DNA from: a virus
Direction: 5' to 3' (one strand)
Virus record (IMG/VR): IMGVR_UViG_3300042507_003741
Coordinates: 1-64,000 of that record
DNA length: 64,000 bases
Position 1 is the stretch's first letter. Each line of letters starts with the position of its first letter. The position numbers were made by a program, and so were the translations under genes. The notes beneath the pieces are model-generated. The model was not told the origin of the DNA. It saw only the letters and a program-made list of their open reading frames with translations, and did not search any database. Positions 255 through 64,000 of the stretch are shown piece after piece.

Positions 255-611
255 TTAGGTCGGCCCCGCCCCGCCTACGTCAGTGACCCTAGCGGCGCTA
301 GGGCGTTCGACGGGAGCAGGGCCGACTTGTTGAGTTCGCTCCAGCAGCCCGCGAGCCACAGCGACCGCCGCCATGTCATCGTCGGCGTGGCATCCGTTCT
401 CCTGGCGGTCGATCTCGGAATACTCCGCGACTGCCTCGCACAGCCGCATTATCGCCTCTCGCTCCTCGTCGGTGAGCGTGGGCTGCGGAATCCAACTCCT
501 GCGGTCCAGTTCTCTCGCCGCGTCCAGCAAAACGTCACTGTAATCGGCACCGCAAATGTTGAGCGTGTCGCTCATGTCTCGCAGCCGTTCGGCCAGTTCG
601 TCCTGTGTCAT
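255..611 (-). CDS. Small LTDEERE-family phage protein
   Basis: 118 residues with an AAAGGA ribosome binding site upstream of ATG. The second half carries the module PTLTDEEREAI ... GLLERT, which recurs in the proteins at 683-904, 59997-60269, 60308-60541 and 60795-61523. The module looks like a short two-helix unit beginning with the conserved TDEER turn. The N-terminal part (MTQDELAERLRDMSDTLN) is specific to this copy. I do not recognise a biochemical function. The gene sits just upstream of the duplicated membrane protein, the same order as at 60.6-61.5 kb. Confidence 0.7.
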   Translation of the reverse strand: MTQDELAERLRDMSDTLNICGADYSDVLLDAARELDRRSWIPQPTLTDEEREAIMRLCEAVAEYSEIDRQENGCHADDDMAAVAVARGLLERTQQVGPAPVERPSAARVTDVGGAGPT

Positions 612-22668: not shown

Positions 22669-23369
22669 CACATGGCCCCCTGCACCTGCTGCACGAATCG
22701 CTTGATCTGCTCCAGCGGGAACGTCACAAGCCACTCCTTATCGTTCTGCCGGTGCAGCACCACCGGGCAGAGTTCGCCGCACTGCTCACGGGACTTCTCC
22801 ATGACGGCGTGGAGGTTCAGCCCGCGCTCCACCCGCTTTACCTCCAGCCACAGGTGCGGAGTGCCAGGAGACAGGAGATCGCTGGCCGACTCCGTGCCGC
22901 TGTGCTGCTGCGAGCGGCGGGCTCCGGCCCATGGAACCAGCCGGTTCCATTCGGACGCCGCCTCCAACTCGCCACGCTTTCCCTTCTGCCTGCTGTTGAT
23001 TGCCATATCCTTCAACTCCTTTGGGATCCCGTTCCGCCGACGAAATACGAACACACGCACCGGATACCGCTCCGGGCCGTAGCCCAGATGTTTCTTGAGG
23101 CGGAGCGAAGCCAGGAACGCCGGGTCGTAGTGGGCGTCGTCAACTTCTCTCTTTGCGGTGAGCAGCATCCCTTTGGTGAGGTTGTTCTTGCCCCCGAAGT
23201 GCAACCCCTCGTGGCACCACATGCAGAGACGCAGGAGGTTGCGTCGGTCGTGGGAGCGGCCCGCCCCTTGTTGCAGGTGGTGGATGTGCAGCGACTCCCG
23301 CCCCCAGCACACAGCGCAGAAGCCGTACTCCGCCGCAAAGGCCGCCAGTTCTTTACGGGCATCACTCAT
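22668..23369 (-). CDS. HNH endonuclease fused to PD-(D/E)XK nuclease
   Basis: 233 residues. Residues 1-85 hold an HNH zinc-type endonuclease: CAVC at 18-21, IHHL near 30 and CMWCHEG near 50. Residues about 125-233 are a separate nuclease fold: SRQKGKRGELEAASEWNRLV, then SASDLLSPGTPHLWLEVKRV, matching phage Holliday-junction-resolvase-like PD-(D/E)XK enzymes (D...ExK). An internal ATG at 22997 with AAAGGAG upstream could also express the second domain alone. It overlaps the upstream gene's stop by eight bases. Confidence 0.75.
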   Translation of the reverse strand: MSDARKELAAFAAEYGFCAVCWGRESLHIHHLQQGAGRSHDRRNLLRLCMWCHEGLHFGGKNNLTKGMLLTAKREVDDAHYDPAFLASLRLKKHLGYGPERYPVRVFVFRRRNGIPKELKDMAINSRQKGKRGELEAASEWNRLVPWAGARRSQQHSGTESASDLLSPGTPHLWLEVKRVERGLNLHAVMEKSREQCGELCPVVLHRQNDKEWLVTFPLEQIKRFVQQVQGAM

Positions 23370-23637
23370 CCCCCCTCTCCGTCGTCAGGCTCACGATGTC
23401 CCGCACGGCATGGGTAAAAGCCTCTGCGTCCTCCTCTGTGGCAAACGCGATGACGTACCGATACGACTCCTCTGTCGTGTTCAAGTCCACGCTGTGCTCG
23501 TGCGTCTCCTTTCGGCAGGCTGCCAGACCGCCCAGCCTCTTGGCGGCTTCCACCAACTCCCGGTTCTCCTGCAAGAACCCCGCCAATGCTTGGCCGATGA
23601 ATCCCACGACGATGACTCCCTTGTGAATGTTGGACAC
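23362..23637 (-). CDS. Hypothetical protein, about 91 aa
   Basis: The GTG at 23637 has GGAGAG five bases upstream; an in-frame TTG start at 23649 is less likely. Residues such as ETHEHSVDLNTTEESYRYVI and FATEEDAEAFTHAVRDIV suggest a small alpha/beta fold. Function unknown. First gene after the candidate structured RNA. Confidence 0.5.
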   Translation of the reverse strand: MSNIHKGVIVVGFIGQALAGFLQENRELVEAAKRLGGLAACRKETHEHSVDLNTTEESYRYVIAFATEEDAEAFTHAVRDIVSLTTERGDE

Positions 23638-23699
23638 ACAACTCTCCAATCAAAGCGCCTCTTCAAGCGCTGAAACAAATCAATCTGCTCACTGTTTGA

Positions 23700-23953
23700 A
23701 GGCTCGCTGCGGGTGGACGGCGACTATCCCCAGCCCGAAGGCTAGGGTTAGCCGCCACCTGCCCACTGTCAGTTAGGACGTAGGGGTGTCCTCCTTGCCG
23801 CAGGGGCGGAGGCATGCGACCTGCTTATCGGACATCCTGCTGTCCGCGTGACTTGGCCCTGTCGCTTGCGGCTGGCCTACCCACTTTCGTCACGATCCCT
23901 TCTGGTCGTGGGTCATGCGTCTGCGTGCCATAGGTTCACCCAACCCACGCAGC
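23700..23953 (-). ncRNA. Candidate structured non-coding RNA
   Basis: The longest well-structured gap (about 325 bases between genes, 23650-23974) contains no plausible ORF but at least six hairpins. The main one is a 17-pair stem, 23719-23735 with 23740-23756, closed on the minus strand by C-UUCG-G, with two G-U pairs and one mismatch. Others: AGGAC/GTCCT (23775-23792), CCGC/GCGG (23798-23809), the perfect CGGACA/TGTCCG (23829-23846), CACGA/TCGTG (23891-23910) and CTGCGTG/CACGCAG (23921-23952). The UUCG loop supports transcription from the minus strand. It matches no RNA family I recognise, including tmRNA, RNase P and group I/II introns. Confidence 0.55.
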
Positions 23954-23974
23954 CGTTCGGATTGTCGAATCGCT

Positions 23975-24373
23975 CTACTTCATTCGCGGGATGCTCCGCA
24001 GGACTGCCATGTCCGACCACTTGTCCGCAGCGTGCCAGGACATCCAGCGGCCGCCATTGGTTGCGGCCACAGGAACGCAAAGGACGACGCCCGTGCGGAT
24101 GTTGCAGAGCACAAAAGCATCGACGTGTCGCGGATCGTATCGCTGCGACTTGGCCGACCCTCTGCCAATGCGAATGCGGGACTTGTTGCGGCCGCGAGAC
24201 GACGATGCCTTGACCTGGATCCGCCAGCAGCGGCGTGCATCAAAGGCGAGCAGGTCATACCCGTCGTCCACAATCGGGACGGCGACGTAGAAGCCCGCCC
24301 GGAGCAGCCGCTCCACAGCCATAGCCACGCCGATTTGTGATATGAAACGCTCATCTGGCGATCCTTCGCTCAT
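23975..24373 (-). CDS. PD-(D/E)XK nuclease family protein
   Basis: 132 residues starting MSEGSPDERFISQIGVAMAV with GGAGTG upstream. DDGYDLLAFDARRCWRIQVKASS fits the D-x(n)-(E/Q)-x-K nuclease core, with D in YDLLA and Q-V-K. The group is shared by phage and mobile-element proteins. It lies directly downstream of the helicase gene and upstream of the candidate RNA. Confidence 0.65.
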   Translation of the reverse strand: MSEGSPDERFISQIGVAMAVERLLRAGFYVAVPIVDDGYDLLAFDARRCWRIQVKASSSRGRNKSRIRIGRGSAKSQRYDPRHVDAFVLCNIRTGVVLCVPVAATNGGRWMSWHAADKWSDMAVLRSIPRMK

Positions 24374-24381
24374 GCGCACTC

Positions 24382-25905
24382 CTACCGGGCCGCAGTGGTT
24401 TCCTTTCGCCGCCCCAGTTCCCTCCGCACGGCCGACGTGAATGGCGTCTCCTTCTTCTGGGAGCCAAGCACCCACGAGAGGTATCCCTCCGGGATCGAGT
24501 CCAGAGGAATGCCCTTGTATTTGCCGTACATCATCCGCCAGCCACGCTTCTTCTTGGCCTCCGGCTCGGAGAAGAGGTCGCGGGTGGTGTGATCGAAGTT
24601 GACGCCTATCAGAAGGCTCTTGCGGCGCTCCCGGCTTTCCAGTGACCGGGCCTCCAGTTCTGCCAACTCAATGGCATCCGCCTCACGAATGGCACTGACG
24701 GCATCCGTGCCCTCCATCGACAGAGAGGCAGACAGTCGGCTGCGGCGGGCGGGCCGCTTCCTGCTCTTTGCGTCCAGGACTTGCATCGCATTGAGCAGTT
24801 GATGGTTGCGACTGCTGTCGGTGATGTCGTAGATGTTGAAATGAGGCTTGTCGCTCGCCGCGATTGCCGCCAGCCGCTCGTCCCGGCTCATCTCCGAGTG
24901 GATCGTGCCGGGCAGCGGCCGGGTGCCGCGACCCAGACGCTGCTCGTATCGCGACAGGCTGCGAGTCGGCGCTGCCATGTAGATGTTTCGCAGCGCCGGG
25001 AAGTCCCAGCCGTACCCCAAGATGCCGACGTTCACGATGATCTTGGTTTCACCAGACAGGAAGGCGTCCATGTTCGCCTGCCGCTCGACAATGTTCTGGC
25101 TGCTGTGAACCAGACTGACAGTGTGCTGGTAGCGCTCAAACATGTCGCGCAACTGCACGGCCTGCCGCTTGTTGCATGCGTAGACCACCGACGGCTGCTG
25201 CTTGAAGGTTGACAGGACAAGGCCCGTCACCTCCTGCGCGAAATGCTCTGCCGTCATCACGGCTGCCAACTGGGACGTGTTCCACTCGCCGGCCTCGTCT
25301 TCCACGAGGGACAGGTCGAAACTCTTGGCCTCGCTGAGAAAACACTTGGGGCCGACCAGATACCCGTCGCTGATGCCATCCAGCAGCGAATACACCACCT
25401 GCGGGCGAGGCCAGTATCGCAATGCCTTGCCCTTGCCCTTGTAGGGAGTGGCCGAGAATCCGACGATGGTCGCCCCTCGATTTTCAAACCACTGGAGCAT
25501 CTCCTCCATGCGTGGCGTCATGCCGACGTGGCACTCGTCCACCAGCACCAAAGACACACGCTCGTACGCCTTCGCCTTGAACCGGCTGCTGGAGAGCAGG
25601 CTGTCCCGAGAGCCGACAATCACTCTGCGGCGCAGCCCCTCGATGCTCTCCGCAAAGTTCCCGCCCTGCTCGATGTCGCACCGTTCTCCCAGACGCAATT
25701 CCAAGCGGTCCCGGCCCTGACGCATGAGGTCAAGAAGCGGCACCACCTTCAGCGGGTATCGTGCGATGCGGCACAACTCGGCCATCACCTCTGTCTTGCC
25801 GGAGCCGACCGGCTGGCAGACGACGATCCGCTTTTGGCCTCGCTTTGCGGCCCGGCACACAGCCTCGACGGCGGATCGCTGATAGTCACGAAGGGAGATC
25901 GTCAT
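24382..25905 (-). CDS. SF2 DEAD/DEAH-type helicase with DUF3820-like tail
   Basis: 507 residues. Motif I QPVGSGKT (31-38), II LVDECH (121-126), III FSATP near 148, and VI QRLGRGTRPLPG near 335. The C-terminus has MYGKYKGIPLDSIPEGYLSW, a pattern like DUF3820. The start is ATG with GAGGAGG. A second helicase of the same layout ends the window (63229-64000). Likely a recombination or replication helicase. Confidence 0.85.
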   Translation of the reverse strand: MTISLRDYQRSAVEAVCRAAKRGQKRIVVCQPVGSGKTEVMAELCRIARYPLKVVPLLDLMRQGRDRLELRLGERCDIEQGGNFAESIEGLRRRVIVGSRDSLLSSSRFKAKAYERVSLVLVDECHVGMTPRMEEMLQWFENRGATIVGFSATPYKGKGKALRYWPRPQVVYSLLDGISDGYLVGPKCFLSEAKSFDLSLVEDEAGEWNTSQLAAVMTAEHFAQEVTGLVLSTFKQQPSVVYACNKRQAVQLRDMFERYQHTVSLVHSSQNIVERQANMDAFLSGETKIIVNVGILGYGWDFPALRNIYMAAPTRSLSRYEQRLGRGTRPLPGTIHSEMSRDERLAAIAASDKPHFNIYDITDSSRNHQLLNAMQVLDAKSRKRPARRSRLSASLSMEGTDAVSAIREADAIELAELEARSLESRERRKSLLIGVNFDHTTRDLFSEPEAKKKRGWRMMYGKYKGIPLDSIPEGYLSWVLGSQKKETPFTSAVRRELGRRKETTAAR

Positions 25906-62028: not shown

Positions 62029-62646
62029 TCACCCCATGTGCTTACGAGTTTTTGCTGGAGCCTTTGCAGCTCGGCCTCCAGCGTCCGGATGCGTCTTCGC
62101 AACGTATCGTTCTCTCTCTTCAGTCTCTCCTCCTCCTGCAAGGAAGGCTTCGGTTGGTCCATCTACTAGGTCCAGATAGGCGTGCGGGTACAAGAGGTTG
62201 ATCAACGAATCGGCCGTACGGAGGTGCGCTTTCGGGGCGACGAGGACCGGCACCTCATGCCCACGGCCGCGGTCAAACGTAACGGCCTCTGTCCAGCTCT
62301 CGTCACGGTCCAGGATGGTGAGCCACACCCACTTGCCAGTGGGCTTCGACAGGTACACGTAGATGAGGTTCTGCGTGGACTCCATCTCAAGGCCGCGCAG
62401 GTCATCGACAAAAACCGTGTCGTAGGGATAGGACTCCGGATCATCGAACGACAGGCTCCGCTCCTTGATCTCAATGGAGAACAGCCCAAGGGCGTCAGGG
62501 GTTTCAACATGTCCAGTTTTCCTGCAATGCTGTTTGACAACTATCTTCTTGCCGTGAGCGACCGACCGTCCGCTGGTCCGCATCGCCTCCACCCATTTGC
62601 GTTCGGCCGCCTGGCCTTTAACGAGTGCCGACTGGAATGAACGCAT
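62029..62646 (-). CDS. PD-(D/E)XK-like phage protein
   Basis: About 205 residues from MRSFQSALVKGQAAERKWVE; other ATGs lie upstream in-frame. Core pattern: AERKWVE, VETPDALGLFSIEIKERSLS (D...ExK), then TQNLIYVYLSKPTGKWVWLT. It resembles a holdfast of restriction-like nucleases. Start uncertain because no good ribosome binding site is seen. Confidence 0.6.
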   Translation of the reverse strand: MRSFQSALVKGQAAERKWVEAMRTSGRSVAHGKKIVVKQHCRKTGHVETPDALGLFSIEIKERSLSFDDPESYPYDTVFVDDLRGLEMESTQNLIYVYLSKPTGKWVWLTILDRDESWTEAVTFDRGRGHEVPVLVAPKAHLRTADSLINLLYPHAYLDLVDGPTEAFLAGGGETEERERYVAKTHPDAGGRAAKAPAKTRKHMG

Positions 62647-63136
62647 AGTCGTTCCAAAAGGAGTAGACATGCATGGCAACCGGCACGCGCGGCTGACCAA
62701 CCATGCAGCCCTGGATCACACCCGCAGCCCGCAGCTCCGCCGCGCGCTTGTACAACTCCTCCGGGGGCACATCGTCTCGCTGGAGCCCGCATTCCAGGAA
62801 CTCCAGGCGTTCCGGGATGGGCTCGTTCGCCTTTATCTCATCCGCGTTGTCGCGGACGGCCTTGGCCCAACGATTCGACCGGGAGAAAATCTCTGCGATG
62901 TCGGCGTCATCCAAGCCCCAGTCACGCATGACCACCAGGGCCAGACGCTCGGGCGACGGCATGTAAGTCAGCCGCTTCAGCAGCCGCACCGCACCCTGGG
63001 TCTGCGGGCCCAGCAGACCCAGGATCCTGGCCACGTAGGACGCCGGCTGGCCGTTCACCAGACACCGACGCTTCAGCTCGGGGGCGTGAGCCAAAGCATG
63101 CCGCAATACGACGCCACAGTCTGCGAAACCAACCAT
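62618..63136 (-). CDS. Hypothetical helical protein, 172 aa
   Basis: 172 residues; AAGGAGGAGAGG precedes ATG. MVGFADCGVVLRHALAHAPE, and DDADIAEIFSRSNRWAKAVR resembles an HTH (recognition helix near 85-105). Possibly DNA-binding. Confidence 0.6.
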   Translation of the reverse strand: MVGFADCGVVLRHALAHAPELKRRCLVNGQPASYVARILGLLGPQTQGAVRLLKRLTYMPSPERLALVVMRDWGLDDADIAEIFSRSNRWAKAVRDNADEIKANEPIPERLEFLECGLQRDDVPPEELYKRAAELRAAGVIQGCMVGQPRVPVAMHVYSFWNDYAFIPVGTR

Positions 63137-63248
63137 CTTTCCTCTCCTCCTTGATGAAAGTTGTGGGGAAAACGTGATCCACATCGAAGTAATCCAAGAC
63201 CTCCTGGAGCGTGTCATCCAGGAGAACGTCAGGCCGTTTGCTTGCCAT
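62922..63248 (-). CDS. Small protein overlapping two neighbours
   Basis: The ATG has AGGAGAC upstream. The first about 37 residues (MASKRPDVLLDDTLQEVLDY) do not overlap the gene at 63136; the remaining part overlaps in another frame and is low-complexity. The real protein may be shorter or frame-shifted. Function unknown. Confidence 0.4.
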   Translation of the reverse strand: MASKRPDVLLDDTLQEVLDYFDVDHVFPTTFIKEERKDGWFRRLWRRIAACFGSRPRAEASVSGERPAGVLRGQDPGSAGPADPGCGAAAEAADLHAVARASGPGGHA

Positions 63249-64000
63249 GTCTCCTATCCCTCTCCTTGCGAAACAGACTGCTCACCCAACCTTTGGTGTT
63301 CACTGCGGCCCACCGCAGATACCAATCAGGCAACGTGTTGAGCGTGCGGCCGGCGAACTTGCCTTTCAGCGGGTTCACATACGTTCCGACGCACCGCTTG
63401 CCCGAGCCGATCTGCACCTCCTCGGAGAACAGACGGCCCGTCGCTTGGCCCTGCATCCGCTTGCGGCGGGCTTCGATGTCCTGGGCAATCAGCCGGCGCT
63501 CCAGTTCCTGCTGGGCCAGGGCGTCGATCTGCTCCTGGGTCAGCGGCTCGGCGGCTTGAGCGGCAGCCTTCTTGATGACCTGGCGCACTTCCTTGTCGGC
63601 CGTGCAGAACATGTCCACGGCTGTGACGAGTCGGTGGTCCAGGCTTGCATCAGTGCAATCGACAATCTTGAAACGTGGCTTTCCAGATCCTGCGATCCGT
63701 GCAATACGGCCGGATGGATCCGAGCCTTCGTAGTCCACAACTCCGGGGAGAGGACGAGTGGCTCGTCCCACGCATTGCAACCAGAAAGATCGGGACTTTG
63801 TGGGCCTTCCGAGGATGAGGGTGGCGGTCGGCGGATGATCGAAGCCAACGGCCACAACTTGGCAATTGACAAGAACCTTCGCCTCTCCAGTCTTAAATCG
63901 CCGGATAGCATCTTGCCGTTCCTCCTCGGGCTGGGTGCCGTACACATAGACCGCAGGGATGCCGTAGTTGTTGGTCAGGTAGTGGCAGACACCCTTGGCC
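63229..64000 (-). CDS. SF2 helicase, C-terminal part (cut by window end)
   Basis: The open frame runs off the window's right edge. Visible: helicase C-terminal domain with motif IV-V (VLVNCQVVAVGFDHPPTATL) and VI (WLQCVGRATRPLPG). The C-terminus carries GTYVNPLKGKFAGRTLNTLP then DWYLRWA, the same DUF3820-like unit as the helicase at 24382-25905. The ATPase half lies outside. It stops over the start of the next gene. Confidence 0.8.
   Translation of the reverse strand, partial: AKGVCHYLTNNYGIPAVYVYGTQPEEERQDAIRRFKTGEAKVLVNCQVVAVGFDHPPTATLILGRPTKSRSFWLQCVGRATRPLPGVVDYEGSDPSGRIARIAGSGKPRFKIVDCTDASLDHRLVTAVDMFCTADKEVRQVIKKAAAQAAEPLTQEQIDALAQQELERRLIAQDIEARRKRMQGQATGRLFSEEVQIGSGKRCVGTYVNPLKGKFAGRTLNTLPDWYLRWAAVNTKGWVSSLFRKERDRRHGKQTA

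Follow-up and report, generated by a model that had tools for sequence, protein, structure and literature searches.

The window analysed here, a stretch of 64 kb (64,000 nucleotides) that forms part of an 81.6-kb IMG/VR virus record, contains a gene-free interval bounded by the end of a PDDEXK_5 nuclease gene (23978..24373; Pfam PF11645, E 1.8e-8), near 23,978, and the start of the next small gene, near 23,637-23,649. Both genes lie on the minus strand, so that the original prediction was correct in describing the interval as devoid of genes and its neighbours as co-directional. The interval is occupied by a conserved element, denoted type A, which was delimited through its homologues, their alignment (A2) and covariation: it is about 280 nt long and runs on the minus strand from a 5' start at ~23,958 to a 3' stop at ~23,684 (23684..23958). 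The extent originally proposed, 23,700 to 23,953, overlaps this element but misses its last 16 conserved bases, including the direct repeat R2 discussed below.

Two neighbours of the element are constant, namely, an upstream gene for an SF2 helicase (24385..25905, minus strand; PHROG 16, E 7.7e-60) and a downstream gene for an HNH and RusA-like nuclease (22671..23369, minus strand; PHROG 244, E 1.3e-12, in addition to HNH matches). Among the loci with a match, the helicase gene is located upstream, on the same strand, in 33/33 loci of type A and 44/44 loci of type B, a second RNA introduced below (77/77 together), and the HNH gene, again co-directional, is located downstream in 41/41 loci of type A and 44/44 of type B (85/85), where both totals include some overlapping loci of the same contigs. 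The gene directly 3' of the RNA differs among phages, encoding the small protein MEM, the small protein MAK, or HNH; the distance from the RNA to the HNH gene ranges from ~77 to ~1,200 nt, and many loci have the start of the next gene no more than ~40 nt away from it. A search beside the type A RNA revealed neither a promoter-like nor a terminator-like site, and an independent transcript is therefore not indicated. There is no tRNA or tmRNA at the locus and no tRNA in the entire 64-kb window. A model search of the 81.6-kb record yields one copy of type A only; short matches near 7.7 and 7.9 kb were rejected as a second copy, being chance similarities inside a coding ORF. At the left end of the window (260-325, minus strand), we observed a member of a known small RNA family, DUF3800-VIII RNA (RF03075; 59 bits, E 1.6e-8).

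Predicted fold of the type A RNA and its coupled repeats

For the interval as a minus-strand RNA, none of 100 dinucleotide shuffles folds as stably (z -2.8); the plus-strand result is less striking (z -2.0, with 2/100 shuffles as good). Alignment A2 comprises 24 non-redundant type A members, and 12 helices with 72 pairs were assigned in it (P1, PK1, P2, P3, P4, PK2, P5, PK3, P6, P6b, P7b and P8). When a two-sided change is counted if present in at least one member, and the outer-stem CACC/GGUG variants are left out of both figures, such changes occur in 38 of the 72 pairs, compared with 5-9 when the partner is slid by 1-3 columns, and the observed value was reached by none of 500 shuffles. Although the alignment was known when the helices were named, scanning blindly for stems of 5 or more pairs recovers the same signal: 10 stems contain at least 2 two-sided pairs, against a mean of 0.08 and a maximum of 1 in 40 tree-preserving simulated alignments, a null that distributes changes across all columns. 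Because many positions are invariant, no Watson-Crick pair on its own attains E<0.05 (the best has 0.26) when pairs are tested singly with our tree-aware procedure on these 24 sequences, whose diversity is limited, and the covariation support, as far as it can be read from this alignment, sits at the level of helices and of the whole structure. In the minus-strand reading, G.U cells outnumber A.C cells, 102 vs 11, a bias that assigns the RNA to the minus strand.

These figures bear out the candidate structured RNA of the original prediction, which had named two observations that would speak against it, the lack of covariation in homologues and an aligned protein. Covariation is strong across the 24 members, and no conserved reading frame is found in them: a protein-coding origin was rejected given that the longest stop-free stretches vary without pattern and that lengths differ by non-multiples of three. 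That the locus encodes a real structured RNA, on the minus strand and absent from Rfam, is, in our estimate, very nearly certain.

In the predicted fold, all of it on the minus strand, pseudoknots interlock in a chain, and a long hairpin domain, P8, comes after them. The chain begins with the hairpin P1 (23921..23952; arms 23952-23946 and 23927-23921; 4/7 pairs two-sided, 97% of cells paired), the loop of which (23932-23928) pairs with 23905-23901 in the P2 loop to form PK1 (23901..23932; 2/5 pairs two-sided, including UCUGG/CCAGA and UUUUGG/CCAAAA), with one A.G mismatch in the window itself. P2 (23880..23912; arms 23912-23908 and 23884-23880) has two-sided changes in 5/5 pairs and is 99% paired; it is crossed by P3 (23847..23894; arms 23894-23889 and 23852-23847), in which the P2 loop pairs with a downstream strand and where all 6/6 pairs are two-sided and 100% of cells are paired. 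P4 follows (23855..23877; arms 23877-23874 and 23858-23855; 2/4 pairs two-sided), and its loop, in turn, pairs with a downstream strand in PK2, which crosses P3 and P4 (23816..23865; arms 23865-23861 and 23820-23816; 3/5 pairs two-sided, 100% paired, with GCGAC/GUCGC, GAGUC/GACUC and GAGAC/GUCUC). The chain is completed by the hairpins P5 (23829..23846; arms 23846-23841 and 23834-23829; 3/6 pairs two-sided) and P6/P6b (23790..23812; arms 23812-23805 and 23799-23790; 4/8 pairs two-sided), joined by a kissing pair, PK3, between the P5 loop (23840-23836) and the P6 loop (23804-23800; PK3 as a whole 23800..23840; 4/5 pairs two-sided). P7b (23761..23779; arms 23779-23776 and 23764-23761) has 98% of its cells paired and one-sided changes only.

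P8 (23719..23756; arms 23756-23740 and 23735-23719; 5/17 pairs two-sided, 97.5% paired) is the UUCG-capped stem of 17 pairs from which the original prediction started. The long stem is real, the C(UUCG)G loop is indeed on the minus strand, and one G-U pair, in line with the G-U pairing then pointed out, is kept in 24/24 sequences. In the window, however, the stem consists of 16 pairs and one A.A mismatch, as one U that is present in most homologues, and completes all 17 pairs in them, is missing here. Nor is the loop conserved: other members carry UUCU, AUCA, UCAC and others, so that UUCG is incidental. P8 is a side domain at the 3' end of type A, the core of which is pseudoknotted.

Around this domain, we observed a CACC segment 5' of R1, GGUG after R1, and another CACC after P8 (alignment columns 204-207, 239-242 and 284-287), such that GGUG can pair with either CACC. 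The three segments change together in a diverged clade, to CGCC/GGCG/CGCC, and the two alternative partners of GGUG could form a possible conformational switch.

The strongest covariation in the alignment stems from identity rather than base pairing, namely, the identity of two direct repeats that flank the P8 domain, R1 (ACAGUGGGCAGG; 23758..23769, minus strand) and R2 (ACAGUGAGCAGA; 23684..23695, minus strand), which are coupled letter for letter. R2 marks the 3' boundary of the element, the sequences diverging directly after it. At three variable positions (A/G/U/C, U/C and A/G; coupled columns 226/304, 230/308 and 233/311), R1 and R2 carry the same letter in 24/24 members, and parsimony assigns seven, two and two changes to these positions, equal in both copies. 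No column complementary to the coupled positions was found in the RNA alignment, no consistent antisense site within 600 nt, and no excess of further copies in the window. This pattern suggests one partner that would contact both repeats, be it a protein or an RNA or DNA acting in trans. In one diverged member only, a possible third, degenerate copy with two mismatches lies 68 nt past R2 (L186:676-689).

Relatives, the type B counterpart and known RNA families

To locate relatives, the flanking PDDEXK and helicase proteins served as queries against viral contigs. The gene order of the window was found again in dozens of uncultivated phage contigs, with the intergenic element at 78-96% identity (blastn and profile searches), and pattern scans added diverged type A members in other contexts (L103, L168, L186 and L110). 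In most comparisons, nucleotide identity to the window is 92-96% for the RNA vs 65-83% for the flanking genes, and for the RNA of the most distant members tested, it is 83-85%. Such high identity, together with the many invariant bases outside the helices in alignment A2, suggests a tertiary core in type A. In a collection of 50,697 records of isolated phages, neither type A nor type B was detected and no nucleotide match of the flanking DNA was found, the helicase and nuclease proteins having only distant homologues there. One contig of a Pirellulaceae (Planctomycetota) metagenome-assembled genome, L278, carries type A. A planctomycete host for these phages is nevertheless only a hint because other genomes of the family yielded no type A (0/240) and a sample of the phylum gave weak matches only, at about 20-23 bits, the chance expectation over 392 genomes. 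In L278, the type A RNA is preceded by a helicase module similar to a second one in the window, where a helicase and a neighbour protein resembling those of L278 are encoded at 62029-63945 (minus strand) with no detectable A or B RNA; the record either contains two related helicase modules or is a chimeric assembly.

Relatives that lack type A carry, at the same position, a second conserved structured RNA, type B, with the motif CGAAAUCCGGGCAACGGGC and with two-sided covariation in 16/56 pairs, vs 1-3 when slid. None of the loci compared has both RNAs, and no testable one lacks both. Among loci selected through HNH-RusA, 33 carry A and 28 carry B, with 0/61 testable loci (those with enough upstream sequence) lacking both and 5 further loci ending at the contig edge; among those selected through the helicase, 33/33 carry A or B, one of them a variant B. 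A quick tree of 52 helicase proteins requires 12 changes between A and B, all forced by well-supported branches, and the HNH tree requires 14 switches. The two types have a common strand order, P1 with a loop-pairing partner and then a-b-a'-hairpin-b', which, at the level of predicted folds, is compatible with deep homology and does not show it.

Beyond this slot, other phages have diverged type B cores in the vicinity of terminase, Erf or HNH genes. Six of these (L194, L196, L205, L208, L212 and L225), centred on the motif GAAATCCGGGCAACGGGC, represent a diverged sub-family in unrelated phage contexts, with HNH/NinG, RusA-like, Erf, terminase or head scaffold genes as neighbours, and the type B family is therefore wider than this phage group. 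At the same locus in yet another phage (L058:6914-7627), the 5' part is of type B and the core motif is altered (CGAAGUCCAGCC...), possibly making it a third RNA type.

The statement in the original prediction that the element fits no known RNA family holds up. Rfam 15 yields no match above the gathering threshold at the locus, in the window and nine relatives, and at E up to 10, type A has only one match, to a lncRNA, attributable to chance; a Clostridiales-2 match at E 5.2 was likewise rejected as chance level. With permissive thresholds and diverged members included, neither A nor B has a match beyond these. A riboswitch or gene-specific leader was rejected because no constant gene lies directly downstream, with MEM, MAK and HNH alternating there.

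Comparison with known systems, which for GOLLD, ROOL, STAXI and VIPR relied on their descriptions and Rfam, places the RNA in a familiar category. GOLLD and ROOL are ornate orphan RNAs of phages and prophages, with elaborate secondary structure, pseudoknots and kissing loops and with function unknown (PMC12286853), and type A shares all these structural traits as well as its orphan status. They are, however, much longer (roughly 660 to over 800 nt vs ~280 nt), are associated with tRNA islands rather than a recombination operon in a window without tRNAs, and differ from type A, which lacks a match to their Rfam models, in having no swappable counterpart. Homo-oligomeric cages are a further hallmark of GOLLD and ROOL. 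STAXI (PMC2864571) is one pseudoknot repeated two or three times, whereas type A is one large non-repetitive fold, again without an Rfam match. VIPR, a phage RNA-guided system with a minimal locus, resembles type A in being a structured RNA in a phage-encoded locus, but in its vrRNA a structured tail comes after 9-16 tandem YNNGG repeats (PMC13142463), and inspection of the aligned type A element revealed no such tract. The omega-RNAs of IscB and TnpB similarly adjoin a nuclease gene; here, however, the neighbouring HNH proteins match only generic HNH and RusA/PDDEXK families, HNH being a small domain, either on its own or fused to RusA, with no match to IscB or TnpB, and no guide was identified. 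In our judgement, the A and B RNA families are new, the general kind, orphan ornate phage RNA, is known, and the swappable two-type slot is the new part.

Proposed function in trans and its alternatives

Given that A or B is present in every testable locus, the RNA probably does something indispensable for this phage group, to judge from the sequences compared. We propose that type A would be read from the minus strand within the helicase-nuclease recombination operon, released from the operon transcript by processing, and would then, alone or as part of an RNP, serve in trans a function on which every phage of the group depends. Either of A and B could fulfil this function in place of the other, the exchange running through recombination in the flanking genes: that one or the other is obligatory and that the exchange is frequent argue for the same job. 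Action in trans is favoured by the variation of the gene that follows the RNA, which argues against control of one particular gene; the almost fixed position inside the operon, as a cis-acting element would need, counts against it. The roles that might fit best are a host-facing one, in which a defence is blocked or decoyed, or one with the DNA-processing enzymes of the operon, and we make no choice between the two. Homology, pairing by covariation, strand, fixed position, near-complete occupancy and repeated replacement of A by B and vice versa are, in our assessment, demonstrated by comparative analysis, whereas to the mechanism as a whole, a processed trans-acting RNA with a role that every phage of the group would need, we assign a probability of roughly one half.

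The main rival is action in cis on the operon, because the element never leaves the operon and GGUG has two co-changing CACC partners. The RNA could promote processive antitermination, as phage put/nut RNAs do, stabilise the transcript, or attenuate the genes that follow it; the invariably co-directional placement (77/77 and 85/85) and the next gene starting within ~40 nt in many loci agree with any of these, and a two-state switch would explain why GGUG and both CACC segments change together. Like type A, the put/nut RNAs of lambdoid phages are structured and transcribed within a phage operon, but the known ones are much shorter, and Rfam detects no homology to them. Considering that type A is both larger and more complex than known put elements, that the immediate downstream gene and the distance to HNH vary as described above, and that no terminator-like site was found nearby, we regard control in cis as possible but rather unlikely. 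A DNA-level element, such as a single-strand origin or a recombination or packaging site, with the hairpins forming in DNA and R1/R2 serving as protein-binding repeats, would account for repeats that change in step without a complementary partner, like two sites of one protein, and for the recombination genes all around. Against it, there is no turn of GC skew at the site, and the preference for G.U over A.C, about nine to one on one strand, fits a transcribed RNA and not DNA hairpins, which makes this explanation very improbable.

A catalytic RNA, for example, a group I-like ribozyme, self-splicing or lariat-capping, situated before a nuclease gene, might be evoked by the a-b-a'-hairpin-b' order, which is supported by covariation in both A and B (in A, P3/PK2 around P5). 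Group I introns have the strand order P3-P7-P3'-P8-P7', and type A resembles them and GIR1 in this order of core strands and in preceding a nuclease gene. Homing endonuclease genes are found together with lariat-capping ribozymes, according to PMC4167309. The same strand order, however, arises in double pseudoknots in general, and the remaining parts of a group I intron are missing or differently ordered, the strands of P2 among the latter. Moreover, neither A nor B matches an Rfam group I or GIR1 model at E up to 5-10, and the element, unlike a dispensable intron, lies between genes rather than inside one and has no empty sites, so that a ribozyme appears improbable.

Returning to the trans-acting RNA, its more specific form can be put forward tentatively: A and B may be RNAs that arose independently, or diverged very deeply, and that meet the same essential need of the phage, occupying as interchangeable alleles a two-allele slot of the recombination operon in which they were swapped many times, possibly as an RNP with the HNH nuclease or as an anti-defence RNA, with R1/R2 as a partner-specific contact.

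Few phage RNAs this structured are known, and their functions are mostly open. The alternation of types A and B in a single slot, with 12 or more switches, amounts to a natural replacement experiment, a handle that other such RNAs lack, and the coupled repeats R1 and R2 provide a second handle, pointing to a specific partner. That all testable members of the group carry one or the other RNA suggests that its role is important, be it for recombination of the phage or for overcoming the host. This makes the long-standing question of the function of large phage RNAs directly accessible to experiment.
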